DNA of 64,000 nucleotides from Planctomycetaceae bacterium (GTDB lineage: Bacteria; Planctomycetota; Planctomycetia; Planctomycetales; Planctomycetaceae): the NCBI GenBank assembly GCA_002726205.1, contig PBSL01000011.1:24499-88498 (forward strand). Direction: 5' to 3'. Below, piece after piece: positions 38,588 to 48,442 of the stretch. Under the pieces are notes generated by a model that worked only from the letters and a program-made list of their open reading frames with translations, was not told the origin of the DNA and searched no databases. Every line of letters begins with the position of its first letter. The first letter of the stretch is position 1. The position numbers were made by a program, and so were the translations under genes.

Positions 38588-38600
38588 GAGGCGCGACGTG

Positions 38601-40028
38601 ATGACCAGCGGTGAAAACGACCCGAAGGCTCGCGGCGGTGTGTTGCTGGTGTCGTGTTATGAACTGGGACGTCAGCCGCTGGGAGTGGCCTGGCCGGCGG
38701 GATTCCTGCGCGAGGCCGGTTTCGATCCCGTTTGCCGTGATGTCTCGGTGCGACCACTGACACGCGTCGAAATCCGTCACGCGGCGGTTGCTGTGATTTC
38801 CGTTCCGATGCACACGGCAATGCGTATGGGTGTCAGTGTGGCCGAGGCAATTCGTGCGGTCCAGCCGCGGTGCCGTGTTGTGTTTTTCGGGCTTTATGCC
38901 GTGCTCAACTCCGCGGCCCTGATGGCAGACGGTGCCGCGGCGTGCCTGGGTGGCGAAAGCGAAGAGGAACTGGTGTCGCTGATCCGTGGATGGGACAACG
39001 AAGACGCTCTCGATCGATCCCCGGATACCGGCAAGAGGCACCAGCGGTTTCGTGTGCCGGACCGGTCGACCTTGCCTGATTTGGAACGCTACGCGAAGTT
39101 CGAGGCGAGCGGTCGCAGCGAAGCCGTGCTCGTGGGAAGTGTGGAGGCCAGTCGGGGCTGCCGTCACCTGTGCACGCACTGCCCGATTCCGCCCGTGTAC
39201 CGGGGCAGGTTTGTTGCCGTGCCGGAGGATGTTGTACTGGCCGACATCGCGCAGCAGGTGGCTGCCGGAGCACGTCACATCACCTTCACCGATCCAGATT
39301 TCCTGAACGGACCCGGGCACGCCCTGCGTCTGGCCCGGGGACTGCACGCCGCCCATCGCCATGTCTCATTTGATTTCACCGCGAAGATCGAACATCTGGT
39401 TGAGAGAGGGGACGTGCTTCCCGAACTGGTGGACTGCGGCGCGGCCTTCGTGGTGACGGCGGTGGAGTCGCTCAATGCCAAGGTGCTGGAGATTCTTCAC
39501 AAGGGGCACACTCCCGCTGACGTCTTGACGGCGTTGGAGCGAACGCGGATGGCGGGATTGCCGATGCGGCCGACCTGGATGCCGTTTACGCCCTGGGCGA
39601 CCATCGACGACTTTCGTGAGATAATCGGTTTCGTGGAATCCGCGGGGCTGGTGACACATGTCGATCCGGTGCAGTTTTCCATCCGCTTGCTGGTGCCGCC
39701 GGGATCATTGCTCGAGGATCACCCCGAATTTCTTGCGTTTCGTGGCGACCTGGACCGACAGGCGTTTTCGTGGACATGGAGATACGCCGACCCGCGGATG
39801 GAAGGTCTGCAGCGGGAAGTGGCGGCCCGGGTCGAAGCCGATGCCCGCGATCAATTCGGTGAGGAAACGACGTTTGCCCGGATCCGGGATCTGGCCGGAG
39901 GTTCGTTGACCTGCCACGCCGCGGTCGCCACCATCGACTCGCCGCCCGCACCGCGATTGACCGAAGACTGGTTTTGTTGAGCGGAACCGACCGGGGCTCA
40001 GTTCGAGTCTCTCGTGATCGGGGAATGA
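38601..40028 (+). CDS. CUAEP-tail radical SAM selenoprotein (in-frame UGA read as Sec)
   Basis: As an ordinary gene it stops at TGA 39978-39980, but the frame continues as Cys-UGA-Ala-Glu-Pro and on to TGA 40026-40028 (475 residues from ATG 38601). A radical SAM family whose tail reads CUAEP or CCAEP is known to carry selenocysteine at this place, and this gene matches that tail. The N-terminal 110 residues look like a B12-binding-type Rossmann domain (VLLVSCYELG, then SVPMHTAM). The radical SAM core has the cluster motif CRHLCTHC (CX3CX2C) near residue 186. Later blocks include TFTDPDFLNG and TPWATIDDF. A bacterial SECIS-like hairpin follows the UGA. The start could also be GTG 38598. It shares a transcript with five following genes. 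Sec insertion is inferred, not proven. Confidence 0.75.
39978..40011 (+). promoter_or_regulatory. UGA selenocysteine codon with bacterial SECIS-like hairpin
   Basis: TGA at 39978-39980 sits in frame between TGT (Cys) and GCG GAA CCG (Ala-Glu-Pro). Bases 39993-39999 pair with 40005-40011 over 7 bp (two G-U) round loop AGTTC; the loop G at 40001 is 20 bases after the UGA. Bacterial SECIS elements are short hairpins with a G near the start of the loop at about 16-37 bases, so the geometry fits. Confidence 0.65.
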
Positions 40029-40050
40029 TTCCGCAAGGGGAGATGGTTGG

Positions 40051-40761
40051 ATGGATGTCGCACCGGGTTTGCAGCAACTGTTGGGGTTGGACGTCACCCC
40101 GGTGGCCGTGGCCGTGGTTGATGAGTTGCCAGCGGATGTGGCTCGTGTCGACGAGTCGGCAGCCGCGGGCTGTGGCTACTGGAAACGGGCGGCGCAGGGC
40201 GAGGTGTTTGCCACGGTTGCTGTGGATCATTTTGGCTGCCCCATCGGGGCTTACACGCATGGCGTGGAATTGCCGGTGGCCGAGGCCGAGCAACAGCAGA
40301 CGATGATCGACATGATGGTGGAACTGGAGTACGTGCGACGGGATGAGGTTCCCGAGATCCCTCACCACAGTGAAGGATTTGGTGCAGTGGTCTATTCACC
40401 CATCGACCAGGCCCCCTGCCCCATCGACGCGGTGGTCGTGCAGGGGACCCCCAGACAGATGATGATCCTGGTCGAAGCCGCGAATGCCGCCGGCCTTGTT
40501 GCGGGCCAAGCCGCGGGGCGTCCGACTTGTGCAGCGATTCCTGAGGTGATGCAAGAGGGTCGCTTCGTCACGAACCTGGGGTGTATCGGCAATCGCGTCT
40601 ACACCGGGATTGCCGATGATCAACTGTATGTCGTCCTGCCCGGTGATCGGGTCAACGACGTCCACGACAAGTTGTCGGTCATTGTGAATGCCAATTCCCG
40701 CCTGGAGGCATATCACGGGGACCGCCTGCAGTGTTGCCGCGATAGCACAAACGACGATTGA
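40051..40761 (+). CDS. DUF169 family protein
   Basis: Cytoplasmic protein of 236 residues of the DUF169 group, a cysteine-rich family of unknown role. Seen: the conserved block CGYWKRAAQGEVFATVAVDHFGCPIG near 40-65, and CAAIPE...LGCIGNRVYTGIADD near 165-195. The regular cysteines suggest metal or Fe-S binding. RBS AAGGGGAG lies 8 bases before the ATG. If the upstream UGA is read through, the radical SAM product ends 22 bases before this gene, so the two are almost certainly in one operon. Confidence 0.8.
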   Translation: MDVAPGLQQLLGLDVTPVAVAVVDELPADVARVDESAAAGCGYWKRAAQGEVFATVAVDHFGCPIGAYTHGVELPVAEAEQQQTMIDMMVELEYVRRDEVPEIPHHSEGFGAVVYSPIDQAPCPIDAVVVQGTPRQMMILVEAANAAGLVAGQAAGRPTCAAIPEVMQEGRFVTNLGCIGNRVYTGIADDQLYVVLPGDRVNDVHDKLSVIVNANSRLEAYHGDRLQCCRDSTNDD

Positions 40762-40855: not shown

Positions 40856-41455
40856 ATGTCTGACGAGATCCTGATCCAGGGTGAACCGATGAAGGTTCCC
40901 ACGATGTGCCGGTTCACCATGAGCCAGCCGGTGTACCCCGACCAGTCGTATTATTTCGGCAGTGCCGAGGCGGCCGAGTTGTCACCACTGGCGACCCGGT
41001 TGTTCGAGATCGAGGGGATTTCGGCGGTCCTGGTGACACACGACCGGATCACTATCACGAAACAGGGTTCGAAGCCGTGGCCTGAAGTTGGCAAACAGGT
41101 CGGTACGGCAATTCGCGACCACGTGGCCTCGGGACAGCCCGCTGTCGATTCCGACCTCCGGGAAAGAATTCCCACGGCCGAGGTATTGAAGGATCGAGTT
41201 CAGGGCGTGCTGGACAGAGAGGTCAACCCATCGGTGGCCAGCCATGGCGGTGTGGTCAGGTTGCTCGATGTTCGCGACAACCAGGTCTACCTCCAGATGG
41301 GAGGCGGATGCCAGGGCTGTGGTCAGGCTGATGTGACCTTGAAGCAGGGGGTGGAAGTCGCGATCCGGGCCGAGGTTCCGGAGGTGGGAGAGATCCTGGA
41401 TACCACCGATCACGCCGCCGGAAACAACCCGTATTACTCCCCGTCCAAGAAGTAG
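40856..41455 (+). CDS. Nfu-type Fe-S cluster scaffold/carrier
   Basis: Protein of 199 residues with an N-terminal Nfu_N-type domain (about 10-95, ending DHVASG) and a C-terminal NifU-like domain (about 110-185) with the cluster motif CQGCG in GGGCQGCGQADVTLKQGVE. Such proteins bind a 4Fe-4S cluster at the CXXC motif and pass it to client proteins. Here the client could be the radical SAM enzyme encoded 0.8 kb upstream, whose cluster motif needs a donor. GAAGGGAAGG lies a short way before the ATG. Located in the CUAEP operon, not with other isc/suf genes. Confidence 0.85.
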   Translation: MSDEILIQGEPMKVPTMCRFTMSQPVYPDQSYYFGSAEAAELSPLATRLFEIEGISAVLVTHDRITITKQGSKPWPEVGKQVGTAIRDHVASGQPAVDSDLRERIPTAEVLKDRVQGVLDREVNPSVASHGGVVRLLDVRDNQVYLQMGGGCQGCGQADVTLKQGVEVAIRAEVPEVGEILDTTDHAAGNNPYYSPSKK

Positions 41456-41479: not shown

Positions 41480-42745
41480 ATGGCCCGCGTGCTGTTGATG
41501 CTGCCGACGCGGACGTACCGGACGCCGGCATTGCTGGCGGCGGCGGCGCGTAGTGGTGTCGAGTTGACCGTCGCTTGCGAGGAAACCAGCTCGTTGGCCC
41601 ATCTGAATCCCACGGGCCTGCTGACGCTACCCTTCTCCTCGCCGGAACAGGTTGCCGAGCCGGTACTGGCATTCCATCGGGATCATCCGATTGATGCGGT
41701 GATTGGCGTTGATGACACGGTCGTCGAGGCGGTGGCTGTTGCGGCACGGGTCCTGGGGTTGCCTCACAACGATCCCCAATCCGTGGCCCTGGCTCGTGAC
41801 AAGAGGCTGTCACGAGAGGCCTTCGCCGCCGCCGACGTCAGGTCTCCTGAGTTTTCGTGGAGAAGTTTTGACGATTCCGATCGGGCTGCTCGGCCCGGCT
41901 TCGGCTTCCCGGCGATCGTCAAGCCATTGCAACTCTCGGCAGGCCGAGGCGTGATTCGCGCTGACTCGCCCGGCGAACTTGCAGCCGCCATCGAGCGACT
42001 CGAGAGCATTCTTGAATCCGAGCCAGATTGTACGACGGAGACGGGGTTCCTGGTCGAATCATTCGTCCCGGGACCCGAGGTGGCCCTCGAGGGCTTGTTG
42101 AGAGGTTCGGAGCTGGAAGTGCTGGCGATCTTCGACAAGCCCGAACCTCTGGAGGGTCCCTATTTCGAAGAGACGATCTACCTGACACCGTCACGGCAGG
42201 ATGAGGATTGGCAGCAGTTGCTGGCGGAGACGGCCGCAGAGGCCTGTCGCGCGGTGCGACTCGAGGAAGGAAGCGTTCACGTGGAAATGCGGGTGACGCC
42301 AGAGGGCCCGGTTGTGATCGAGGTCAACCCTCGGGCGATTGGCGGTTTGTGTTCGGAAGTTTTGCGTTTCGGGACCGGCCTGTCGCTGGAGGACCTGCTG
42401 CTGAATCACGCGTTGGGAGACCGTGCGCCGTTGCCGCCGCGGGCGGACACGGCTGCGGGGGTGATGATGCTGCCGGTCCCAGTCGCGGGTCGGCTGGTTC
42501 GTGTTGATGGCCTGCAAGCCGCCGGCGAAGTGCCGGGGATCCAACGAGTGGCGATCACCGCCCATCCCGGACAACTGCTGCAACCCTGGCCCGAAGGGAG
42601 TCCGTATCCCGGGTTCCTGTTCGCCCGGGGTAAAACTTGCGAGGATGTGCAACGGGCATTGCACGAGGCCCACGGGAAGTTGACACTGGTGCTGGATGAG
42701 TCGCCTCGTTGCAGCAGAACAGGTGAAGGGGATGCAAGACACTGA
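41480..42745 (+). CDS. ATP-grasp enzyme
   Basis: Protein of 421 residues with an ATP-grasp core: PAIVKPLQLSAGRGV near 140 (nucleotide-binding Lys and Gly-rich loop), VESFVPGPEVALEG near 195, and metal-binding EVNPRAIGGLC near 275. These enzymes join a carboxylate, through an acyl phosphate, to an amine or thiol. Substrate unknown. It lies 24 bases after the Nfu gene and its end overlaps the next gene, which argues for one operon. In the context of a radical SAM protein it could ligate a modified residue or build a small molecule; that is inference. Confidence 0.78.
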   Translation: MARVLLMLPTRTYRTPALLAAAARSGVELTVACEETSSLAHLNPTGLLTLPFSSPEQVAEPVLAFHRDHPIDAVIGVDDTVVEAVAVAARVLGLPHNDPQSVALARDKRLSREAFAAADVRSPEFSWRSFDDSDRAARPGFGFPAIVKPLQLSAGRGVIRADSPGELAAAIERLESILESEPDCTTETGFLVESFVPGPEVALEGLLRGSELEVLAIFDKPEPLEGPYFEETIYLTPSRQDEDWQQLLAETAAEACRAVRLEEGSVHVEMRVTPEGPVVIEVNPRAIGGLCSEVLRFGTGLSLEDLLLNHALGDRAPLPPRADTAAGVMMLPVPVAGRLVRVDGLQAAGEVPGIQRVAITAHPGQLLQPWPEGSPYPGFLFARGKTCEDVQRALHEAHGKLTLVLDESPRCSRTGEGDARH

Positions 42746-45562: not shown

Positions 45563-47149
45563 GTGAGACAAGCAGCAAACGTGGCGATGATGTTGACCCT
45601 GTCGTTTCTGGCTTCGACAGGGCGTCCTGCCAAACCGGTCGAAGCGGACGTGGTCCTGGTTGGTGGAACCATCCATGACGGGTCGGGAAAGCCGGGCGTG
45701 GTCGGTGATCTGGCAATCAAGGGCGATCGGATCGTGGCGGTAGGGAAGGCCCAGGTCAAGCCAGGCGCCTGGAAGCTGGATTGCCGTGGCCTGGTGGTGA
45801 TGCCCGGTGCCATCGACCTGCACAATCACAGCGATCGTCAGGTCGTAGCCCCAGGAACCCGGTCGGTCATAAATTATCTCTTGCAGGGTTGTACAACGGT
45901 GGTCACCGGCAACTGCGGGAGCGGTCCGGTCGATGTGGCCGACTATTACCAGAAGATTGGGGCCGCCGGAGCAGGGACCAATGTGGTCCATCTGCTTCCC
46001 CAGGGATCCTTACGACGCCAGGTGATGGGAACCGATCGCCGCGCCGCGACCAAAGAAGAAATGAAAGAGATGCGGGGACTCGTCGAGAAGGCGATGAAGG
46101 ACGGGGCCTGGGGCATGTCGACAGGGTTGATCTATGTGCCGGGCACTTATGCCAATACCGCCGAACTGGTGGCGTTGGCCAAGGTGGTCGCTCGGCATCA
46201 CGGGATCTACGCCAGCCATATCAGGAACGAAAACGTGAGGTTGCTGCTGGCCGTGGAGGAAGCACTCGAAATTGGCCGTCGGGGTGGGTTGCCGATCCAC
46301 GTGTCGCACTTCAAGTCCAGTGGACGCGACTCCTGGGGCGTGGTCCGCCAGGCGGCGCTGATCATCGCAAAGGCCAGGCGAGCCGGTCAGGTGGCCACGG
46401 CAGACCAGTATCCCTACATCGCCTCGAGCACCTCGCTGGATGCGACAGTGATTCCGACCTGGGCCCGGGCCGGCGGTCGCGCCGAGTTGGTTCGCCGATT
46501 GGAGGACCCGGCGATCGGGAAACGAATCCGCGTGGCAATTGCCGAGAATCTCAGCCGCAAGGAAGATGGCCGCGTGCTGAAGATTGCGAGGTATGGTCCA
46601 CGGCAGGACTGGGTCGGCCGCAGCGTGGCCGAGATTGCCGAGATCGAAAAGCTGACGACTGTTGAAGTGGCCGTCCGTGTCGCGCGAACCGGTGGCGCTG
46701 CCATCGTCAATTTCAGCATGAGTGAAGATGATGTGCGTCACATCATGCAGGTGCCGTGGGTCGCGACCGCTTCGGATGGACGAGCCTACCTCCCGGGGGC
46801 CGACCGTCCTCATCCTCGTAGCTACGGCACGTTTGCTCGCAAACTGGGCCATTACGCGATCCGAGAGAAAGTGCTGAAACTGGCGGTGGCCATTCGCAGT
46901 ATGACCAGTCTGCCCGCTGAAATTCTGGGGATGAAGGACCGGGGACAGCTGCGTGCAGGGATGTTTGCCGACGTCGCCGTGTTTGATCCTGGAGCGATCC
47001 GGGATGCCGCGACATTCCAGGATCCTCACCAATACTCCGAGGGATTCCGGTACGTGTTCGTCAACGGCCGACCGGCCGTCTACGCCGGAAAATCGACCGG
47101 GGCGTTGGCCGGCAAGCCGCTGGTGCATCCCGGGGGAGGATCGAAGTGA
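45563..47149 (+). CDS. N-acyl-D-amino-acid deacylase (amidohydrolase)
   Basis: Exported or periplasmic protein of 528 residues with a short hydrophobic leader (about 5-20). Amidohydrolase fold: DLHNHSD near residue 91 (metal His pair), TGNCGSG near 118, ASHIRNE near 215 and HVSHFKSSG near 245 (metal His), and ATASDGRAYLP near 405 (metal Asp). These blocks match the D-aminoacylase/N-acyl-D-amino-acid deacylase type. GTG 45563 has GGAG about 9 bases before it. The stop overlaps the mfnB start as GTGA (47146-47149), so the two are coupled. Confidence 0.85.
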   Translation: MRQAANVAMMLTLSFLASTGRPAKPVEADVVLVGGTIHDGSGKPGVVGDLAIKGDRIVAVGKAQVKPGAWKLDCRGLVVMPGAIDLHNHSDRQVVAPGTRSVINYLLQGCTTVVTGNCGSGPVDVADYYQKIGAAGAGTNVVHLLPQGSLRRQVMGTDRRAATKEEMKEMRGLVEKAMKDGAWGMSTGLIYVPGTYANTAELVALAKVVARHHGIYASHIRNENVRLLLAVEEALEIGRRGGLPIHVSHFKSSGRDSWGVVRQAALIIAKARRAGQVATADQYPYIASSTSLDATVIPTWARAGGRAELVRRLEDPAIGKRIRVAIAENLSRKEDGRVLKIARYGPRQDWVGRSVAEIAEIEKLTTVEVAVRVARTGGAAIVNFSMSEDDVRHIMQVPWVATASDGRAYLPGADRPHPRSYGTFARKLGHYAIREKVLKLAVAIRSMTSLPAEILGMKDRGQLRAGMFADVAVFDPGAIRDAATFQDPHQYSEGFRYVFVNGRPAVYAGKSTGALAGKPLVHPGGGSK

Positions 47150-47889
47150 CCGCCGATGGGATGAGATTGCTGGTCAGTGTCCGTTCGCTCGACGAGGCGG
47201 TCGAGGCGATCAGCGGCGGTTGTGACATCCTCGACGTCAAGGAACCAGGTCGTGGTTCACTGGGAATGGCTGATCTGAGAGAGATTGTCGCGGTGGCCGA
47301 GTTCGCAGGTTCGGTTGGTCGCGCCAGTAGCGCCGCGCTGGGTGAATTGGAGGAATGGCCGCGGCCGGGACTCAGGAACACGGCCTGGCCACGGCTGGAT
47401 TATGCCAAGCTGGGCCTTTCGGGAATGGCTGTGGATCGAGGCTGGCAGCGGAAGTGGTGTGATGTTCGCGAAGAGTTGAACGTGACCTCGCAATGGATCG
47501 CCGTGGCCTACGCCGATGCCGAGTCCTGCGAAGCTCCTTCGGTCGAGGCTGTGGTCGAAGCGGCTGTGGCCACGCGCTGTGCCGGAGTGTTGATCGACAC
47601 CTGGAACAAGTCCCGCGGCGACCTGCTCGAGCAAATCGACGTGACCCGGCTGGAATGGGTCCGTCGCAGGACGCGGCAGGCGGGATTGTTGCTCGGCCTT
47701 GCCGGTCGGGTGTCGGTCGAGGGCCTGCCGCGAGTGGTTGCCCTGAAACCCGACGTGGTGGCAATTCGGTCGGCGGCCTGCCTGGAGGGGCAGCGGGAGC
47801 AGGCGGTCGATTCCGGCCGGGTGGCCCTGTTTGCCGAGAGGCTCAGGAAAGCCAGGGTGTCGCTCGAGGCGATGCCGACCGCAGGTTGA
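47146..47889 (+). CDS. mfnB: (5-formylfuran-3-yl)methyl phosphate synthase-like protein
   Basis: TIM-barrel protein of 247 residues of the DUF556/MfnB family. The family makes the furan precursor of methanofuran from two glyceraldehyde-3-phosphate. The expected active-site residues are present: Lys32 in ILDVKEPGRGSLG, Lys88 in DYAKLGLSG, and Asp151 plus Lys155 in LIDTWNKSRG. Planctomycetes are among the bacteria known to keep methanofuran/tetrahydromethanopterin-linked formaldehyde metabolism. GTG 47146 has GGAGG 6 bases before it. Coupled to the D-aminoacylase gene upstream; overlaps the convergent kinase gene by 47 bases. Confidence 0.82.
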   Translation: MTADGMRLLVSVRSLDEAVEAISGGCDILDVKEPGRGSLGMADLREIVAVAEFAGSVGRASSAALGELEEWPRPGLRNTAWPRLDYAKLGLSGMAVDRGWQRKWCDVREELNVTSQWIAVAYADAESCEAPSVEAVVEAAVATRCAGVLIDTWNKSRGDLLEQIDVTRLEWVRRRTRQAGLLLGLAGRVSVEGLPRVVALKPDVVAIRSAACLEGQREQAVDSGRVALFAERLRKARVSLEAMPTAG

Positions 47890-48442
47890 CCCAGTCGACT
47901 CGTGGCAGTTGATCGGACCAGGTGGCCAGGCACGGGTCGATCAGGCCCGCTGCGGCCAGCGTGTCGGGAGTCGCCGGGGTTGGCTTGTCGGTGGACTTGA
48001 AGAGGACGAGACGATCGGCCGGCCAGGCGATCGTGACCCAGGCAGCGATCGCGTCGCTGGTGGCCTGCCAGGTGTGAGGTAACGACAGCGATTGGTGAGG
48101 CTCTTCGGTCGACAGGAAGCGGTTGGCATCCAGAAGTCCCCATTGCCCGTCACGCCATGCCCGCTCGGCCTGGCCGCGGTCGGCAACCAGCGTGGTTGCT
48201 GGAAGCAGTTCGGCGACGAGTTGGGCGTTGAGTGCCATCGCCTGCAGGGCGAGATCGTGTGAAGTGTTTTCGTCGAGCCGATGGGTGGACTGCCAGCTGC
48301 GAACAATGTCGGCGGCTGGCCCACCGCCGATGAGCAGCAGCGGCGATGCCGACTCGAACGACGTGATCACGCCGGTCAGTCGCTCCGGGAGGTCGGGCAA
48401 CGAGAGCAGGCTGCCGCCGACCTTGAGGACGATGATCGACAT
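47843..48442 (-). CDS. amino-acid kinase family protein, possible MfnE
   Basis: Protein of 199 residues: VLKVGGSLLS at the start and IGGGPAADIVR near 38 are the phosphate loops of the amino acid kinase (aspartokinase/UMP kinase) fold. It is short for the fold. In methanogens, MfnE of this fold phosphorylates 5-(aminomethyl)-3-furanmethanol phosphate, and bacteria with mfnB often carry a homologue. Convergence with mfnB and 47 bases of overlap favour that role. It follows hisG by 18 bases, so it is transcribed with the histidine genes. Function beyond the fold is inference. Confidence 0.65.
   Translation of the reverse strand: MSIIVLKVGGSLLSLPDLPERLTGVITSFESASPLLLIGGGPAADIVRSWQSTHRLDENTSHDLALQAMALNAQLVAELLPATTLVADRGQAERAWRDGQWGLLDANRFLSTEEPHQSLSLPHTWQATSDAIAAWVTIAWPADRLVLFKSTDKPTPATPDTLAAAGLIDPCLATWSDQLPRVDWVNLRSASPRATPWLS

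Follow-up and report, generated by a model that had tools for sequence, protein, structure and literature searches.

The closest sequence family of known activity to the protein described here is ArsL, for which a transfer of the 3-amino-3-carboxypropyl group from SAM to As(III) (arsenite) has been proposed, and when arsL is expressed in E. coli, As(III) is converted into the product of this transfer (PMC8552651). Genes of RCCLKC/ArsL proteins on plasmids of Pantoea, Priestia and Alicyclobacillus are found near ATP-grasp genes, together with ArsR, ArsM or aquaporin genes. Regarding selenoproteins, vicinal Cys-Sec pairs are present in the CU-motif proteins SaoL, SaoC, HgcA and MbdU, and several CU-motif selenoproteins bear names tied to organomercury, organometals or metal binding (PMC13188914); the parallel to the present protein lies in the motif only. 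TIGR04167 (GxxU) and TrsS (NF045646) are likewise radical SAM proteins with a predicted Sec (PMC13188914), but are different families, neither of which was among the NCBIfam matches of the present protein. The family to which the protein belongs is already curated as NCBIfam model NF040546, “CUAEP/CCAEP-tail radical SAM (seleno)protein”. In the literature searched, no paper naming this family, or a function for it, was found, and NF040546 is not among the 119 selenoprotein families tabulated in PMC13188914.

The window, i.e., the whole stretch of 64,000 nucleotides that was analysed, stems from a planctomycete whose assembly comprises 4.86 Mb and is 96% complete. It very probably contains the gene of a genuine radical SAM selenoprotein of the CUAEP family (Table 1); the chemistry of the enzyme is a separate and much more tentative matter. 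The frame reads Thr-Glu-Asp-Trp-Phe-Cys, TGA (39978-39980), GCG GAA CCG and then remains open up to the TGA at 40026-40028, in agreement with the initial annotation, in which both the in-frame UGA and the 16-codon extension had been reported. Translation might equally well start from a GTG at 38598 as from the codon at 38601. As the downstream DUF169 gene begins at ATG 40051, read-through reduces the gap between the two genes from 70 to 22 bases, as had also been noted. Termination at UGA 39978 would cost the protein 16 residues (460-475), Sec and the AEP motif among them. The calculated mass with Sec is approximately 52.0 kDa, which replaces the earlier figure of about 51 kDa.

Table 1. Features of the predicted selenoprotein gene and its downstream neighbours (positions within the window)
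Feature	Position	Strand	Basis or description
CUAEP-tail radical SAM selenoprotein gene (predicted)	38601..40028	+	475 residues, Sec at 460; NF040546 590 bits
CxxxCxxC motif for the radical SAM [4Fe-4S] cluster, CRHLCTHC, codons 187-194	39159..39182	+	invariant Cys
UGA almost certainly read as Sec, residue 460, second of the vicinal Cys-Sec pair	39978..39980	+	aligned UGA/Cys codons; sel machinery
SECIS-type hairpin	39993..40011	+	7-bp stem, 5-nt loop AGUUC, loop starting 19 nt past the UGA
UGA as real stop codon	40026..40028	+	homology with relatives ends there
DUF169 (COG2043) protein	40051..40761	+	PF02596, 93 bits; next gene, 22 bases downstream
Nfu-type Fe-S scaffold/carrier protein	40856..41455	+	PF08712 and PF01106
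ATP-grasp ligase, L-amino acid ligase C-terminal domain	41480..42745	+	PF13535, PF18130, PF18603

The read-through protein matched NF040546 with 590.4 bits (cut-off 500) over profile positions 1-467 of 468, and the C-[U/C]-A-E-P tail that gives the family its name is present as WFC-UGA-AEP, so that the initial assignment to this family holds. The full-length match, the WFC-[UC]-AEP tail, the UGA in register and the SECIS hairpin are all shared with the family and no distinguishing feature was seen; since the family has already been curated, the gene is an added member and not a new kind. Within the protein, the Pfam domain Radical_SAM (PF04055) was found at residues 182-340 (48.8 bits, cut-off 29.5), and the three cysteines of the cluster motif (C187, C191 and C194) are invariant in the 47 aligned relatives. 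A B12-binding domain (PF02310, residues 16-126) scored 25.2 bits, which is under the gathering score of 32.1. A PHROGs search gave no match.

Three sets of homologues were used, namely 149 related genomes, a contig scan with 80 loci, and five further genomes of the phylum. Among the 149 related genomes, matches to NF040546 above the cut-off were obtained in the genome of origin and in four others, one of which has two copies, and every one of these genes holds exactly one in-frame TGA. One additional relative (G006:C245, L022) matched only profile positions 1-315, i.e., the first two thirds, with no contig end nearby, and is probably a broken or frameshifted copy. The 80 loci are from Planctomycetota, Rokubacteria, Nitrospirota, Acidobacteriota, Chloroflexota, Gemmatimonadota, KSB1, Elusimicrobiota, Dormibacterota and others. 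Between WFC and AEP, 57 of them (including the window) carry TGA and the other 23 carry TGC or TGT, and the UGA loci span about ten phylum-level groups. TGA was also found at this site in the five further genomes of Planctomycetota and in Thermomicrobium roseum. Because the identical UGA recurs so widely, chance, which had already been considered unlikely, is excluded as an explanation. The AEP motif follows the UGA or Cys codon invariantly in 79 aligned relatives (including the window); close homologues thus extend beyond the first Cys. Variants of the tail were seen as CUSEP in one planctomycetotal genome (L133) and as CCSEP in two Acidimicrobiaceae (L119, L124), so the Ala after Sec or Cys is not absolute. 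A tree of 87 proteins requires five changes between Sec and Cys, at least three of them being forced by well-supported branches.

In the cultured strain T. roseum DSM 5159 (NC_011961.1, L138:7968-9404), a CDS titled CUAEP/CCAEP-tail stops at WFC, and the codons that follow are TGA GCG GAG CCG and then hairpin-forming sequence; the annotated protein of this strain is therefore cut at the Sec codon. Reading with the standard code strips such genes of their last residues including Sec. The expectation that automatic annotation would end the protein early was thus borne out at the UGA, but the loss amounts to the 16 residues given above and not to a single one.

Genes for the complete selenocysteine machinery, which the initial annotation had proposed to look for, are present in the host assembly. 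Genes selB (353.9 bits) and selA (510.4 bits) adjoin on contig 76; selD (347 bits) is located at G000:C13:116990-117913 (L130); and the tRNA-Sec (69.6 bits) has the anticodon TCA according to ARAGORN, i.e., UCA. The selD gene itself contains one in-frame TGA, for which reason SelD is probably a selenoprotein, too. Of 17 genomes carrying the UGA form, 14 had a selB above the cut-off, compared with four of 16 carrying the Cys form (Fisher p = 0.0016, many of the assemblies being incomplete and metagenomic and related genomes being non-independent). No selB was found in the tested genomes of Nitrospirota and Elusimicrobia with the Cys form. Three Dormibacterota (L098, L114, L125) and one member of the Dehalococcoidia (L117) have kept selB despite a Cys-form CUAEP gene.

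The hairpin downstream of the UGA has an energy of -7.9 kcal/mol (hairpin alone) and fits the bSECIS constraints of PMC13188914 (loop of 5 nt, G in second position, 19 nt from the UGA). In the 56-nt stretch 39975-40030, which starts just before the UGA, another fold is preferred and no special stability is apparent (z = +1.12), and an Rfam search of 39900-40100 matched no family; as the hairpin of the window is unexceptional by itself, the case for a SECIS rests on comparison. The pattern in the family is a hairpin 13-31 nt past the UGA, with a stem of about seven pairs and an AGUU-type loop of 4 or 5 nt. Of the 53 distinct UGA sequences, 52 formed at least six of the seven pairs, whereas two of the 23 Cys sequences did so. 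The mean number of pairs in UGA genes was 6.3 of 7, compared with 4.8 in synonymous shuffles encoding the same protein; in Cys genes the respective values were 2.8 and 3.0. This excess over synonymous recoding indicates that the hairpin is no mere by-product of the protein sequence. Regarding the 19 sequences (mostly in one register) that were used for covariation, 96.2% of the cells were paired and 30 changes affected both sides of a pair (shuffled mean 8.5); the covariation score was 0.698 vs. 0.240 for shuffled sequences and was reached by none of 500 shuffles. Sliding the partner by one base lowered the pairing to about 50%, a control that somewhat favours the structure because the 19 sequences were picked for a fitting register; the contrast between UGA and Cys genes and the recoded shuffles are independent of that choice. 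Five members of the phylum outside the first hairpin count all conform (5/5).

That the UGA is an ordinary stop, with the protein ending at Cys459 and the AEP codons being a remnant, would agree with the standard-code reading, with the listed CDS of T. roseum and with a window hairpin that alone is no better than shuffles, but is extremely improbable in view of the conservation of AEP after the UGA or Cys codon, of a SECIS that covaries and is absent from nearly all Cys-codon genes, of the complete Sec machinery and of the co-occurrence with selB, and was rejected. The reading of UGA 39978 as selenocysteine, as put forward in the initial annotation, is almost certainly correct, and the identity of the product as a selenoprotein with Sec inserted at this codon is strongly supported by the compared sequences. 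In the proposed mechanism, SelB carrying Sec-tRNA(UCA) would bind the hairpin, whereupon the ribosome would insert Sec at the UGA. The product would combine a cobalamin-binding-like N-terminal domain with a radical SAM core, in which CxxxCxxC holds the [4Fe-4S] cluster, and with a C-terminal arm whose vicinal Cys459-Sec460 pair may be the working end of the enzyme.

The members of the family are widespread radical SAM selenoproteins with a conserved neighbourhood and are kin to ArsL, the enzyme making the arsenic antibiotic arsinothricin; natural Cys versions, e.g., that of Nitrospira (L058), would make expression and testing practical. Among 86 loci (a count that takes in the window's own locus), matches near the CUAEP gene were found for the window's ATP-grasp in 38, for its Nfu protein in 33 and for its DUF169 protein in 24, many loci being too short to show these neighbours. 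These neighbours recur in distant phyla (Rokubacteria, Nitrospirota, Acidobacteriota). In Caldilineaceae the conserved neighbours of the CUAEP gene look unrelated. A gene for a YggX-type Fe(2+) trafficking protein is situated directly upstream in three loci of Chloroflexota and one of Anaeromyxobacter. The frequency of Nfu and these four upstream YggX-type genes would be in line with an enzyme that serves Fe-S metabolism (repair, modification or delivery with Nfu/YggX-type proteins) and whose resemblance to metalloid enzymes is ancestral. Nfu may, however, merely mature the radical SAM cluster, and an ATP-grasp ligase and DUF169 misfit simple Fe-S repair, which leaves this role improbable.

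A structure predicted with AlphaFold2 using 47 relatives had a mean pLDDT of 89.4 and a pTM of 0.90. Residues 437-444 form a disordered linker, and residues 451-460, ending in the Cys-Sec pair, average a pLDDT of 85; this good confidence suggests that in the model the C-terminal arm docks on the fold. The solved folds closest to the model were AprD4, TsrM, MgmA and OxsB, with MiaB also among them. The highest-scoring one, the radical SAM diol dehydratase AprD4 (PDB 6fd2), aligned over 399 residues with Z 26.4, an rmsd of 3.8 and an identity of 21%; the alignment ends at residue 436, the Cys-Sec arm lying outside of it. No solved structure is near in sequence, the best again being 6fd2 (E 3.8e-6). 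The substrates of these folds are organic compounds or RNA, the majority of prokaryotic selenoproteins that lack characterisation are considered redox proteins (PMC13188914), and ars genes were not recognised near the annotated loci. These points speak for a selenoprotein that works without a metalloid and uses Cys-Sec for redox chemistry or as a leaving group, its substrate being organic, a peptide or RNA. This reading has close to an even chance of being correct, even though the nearest sequence family of known activity is ArsL and both share a pair of vicinal Cys at the C-terminus.

Regarding ArsL itself, the protein has the CxxxCxxC motif, near full-length similarity, the vicinal Cys near the C-terminus (RCCLKC in ArsL) and a nearby ATP-grasp gene in common with it. 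It differs in that CUAEP is borne on a longer C-terminal extension, in that ArsL proteins form a separate clade in the tree of 87 proteins, and in that no ArsM, ArsR or aquaporin was recognised in the annotated neighbourhoods; no ars genes were recognised among the annotated CUAEP neighbour proteins or in the neighbourhood of T. roseum. The ArsL model NF040542 yielded 268.7 bits, which is under its cut-off of 450, the identity to RCCLKC proteins is about 30%, and the protein ends in WFCUAEP, not in the RCCLKC tail. Five matches to the ArsL model within the phylum proved to be CUAEP genes truncated at their UGA codon. The ATP-grasp_4 domain is common to the ATP-grasps of both sides, and LAL_C2, a domain of the window's ATP-grasp, was found under its Pfam cut-off in two of three on the ArsL side. 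As their identity is about 22%, a level general to the superfamily, orthology of the two groups of ATP-grasps is not claimed.

By analogy, it is tentatively possible that the enzyme resembles ArsL and binds a soft metal or metalloid through its Cys-Sec pair. Such an enzyme would cleave SAM as proposed for ArsL and join the SAM-derived fragment to a soft element, e.g., As(III), bound by this pair; the adjacent Nfu protein might supply Fe-S clusters, and the adjacent ATP-grasp might couple the product to an amino acid. Near full-length similarity, vicinal Cys at both tails, ATP-grasps beside both genes and the confident model of the tail argue for this chemistry; the score under the ArsL cut-off, the lack of recognised ars genes nearby and the low identity of the ATP-grasps argue against it. 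The wider proposal, in which the CUAEP family would be a Se-dependent ArsL-like branch making a Cys-Sec-held carbon-metalloid or carbon-metal bond and, together with ATP-grasp, Nfu and DUF169, would constitute a widespread pathway to an organometalloid amino acid or peptide, is rather unlikely.

Elsewhere in the window (47146-48442), a gene resembling (5-formylfuran-3-yl)methyl phosphate synthase (MfnB type) and, on the opposite strand, a gene for an MfnE-like kinase were observed. Both score under the NCBIfam equivalog cut-offs; their presence suggests biosynthesis of a methanofuran-type cofactor in this planctomycete.
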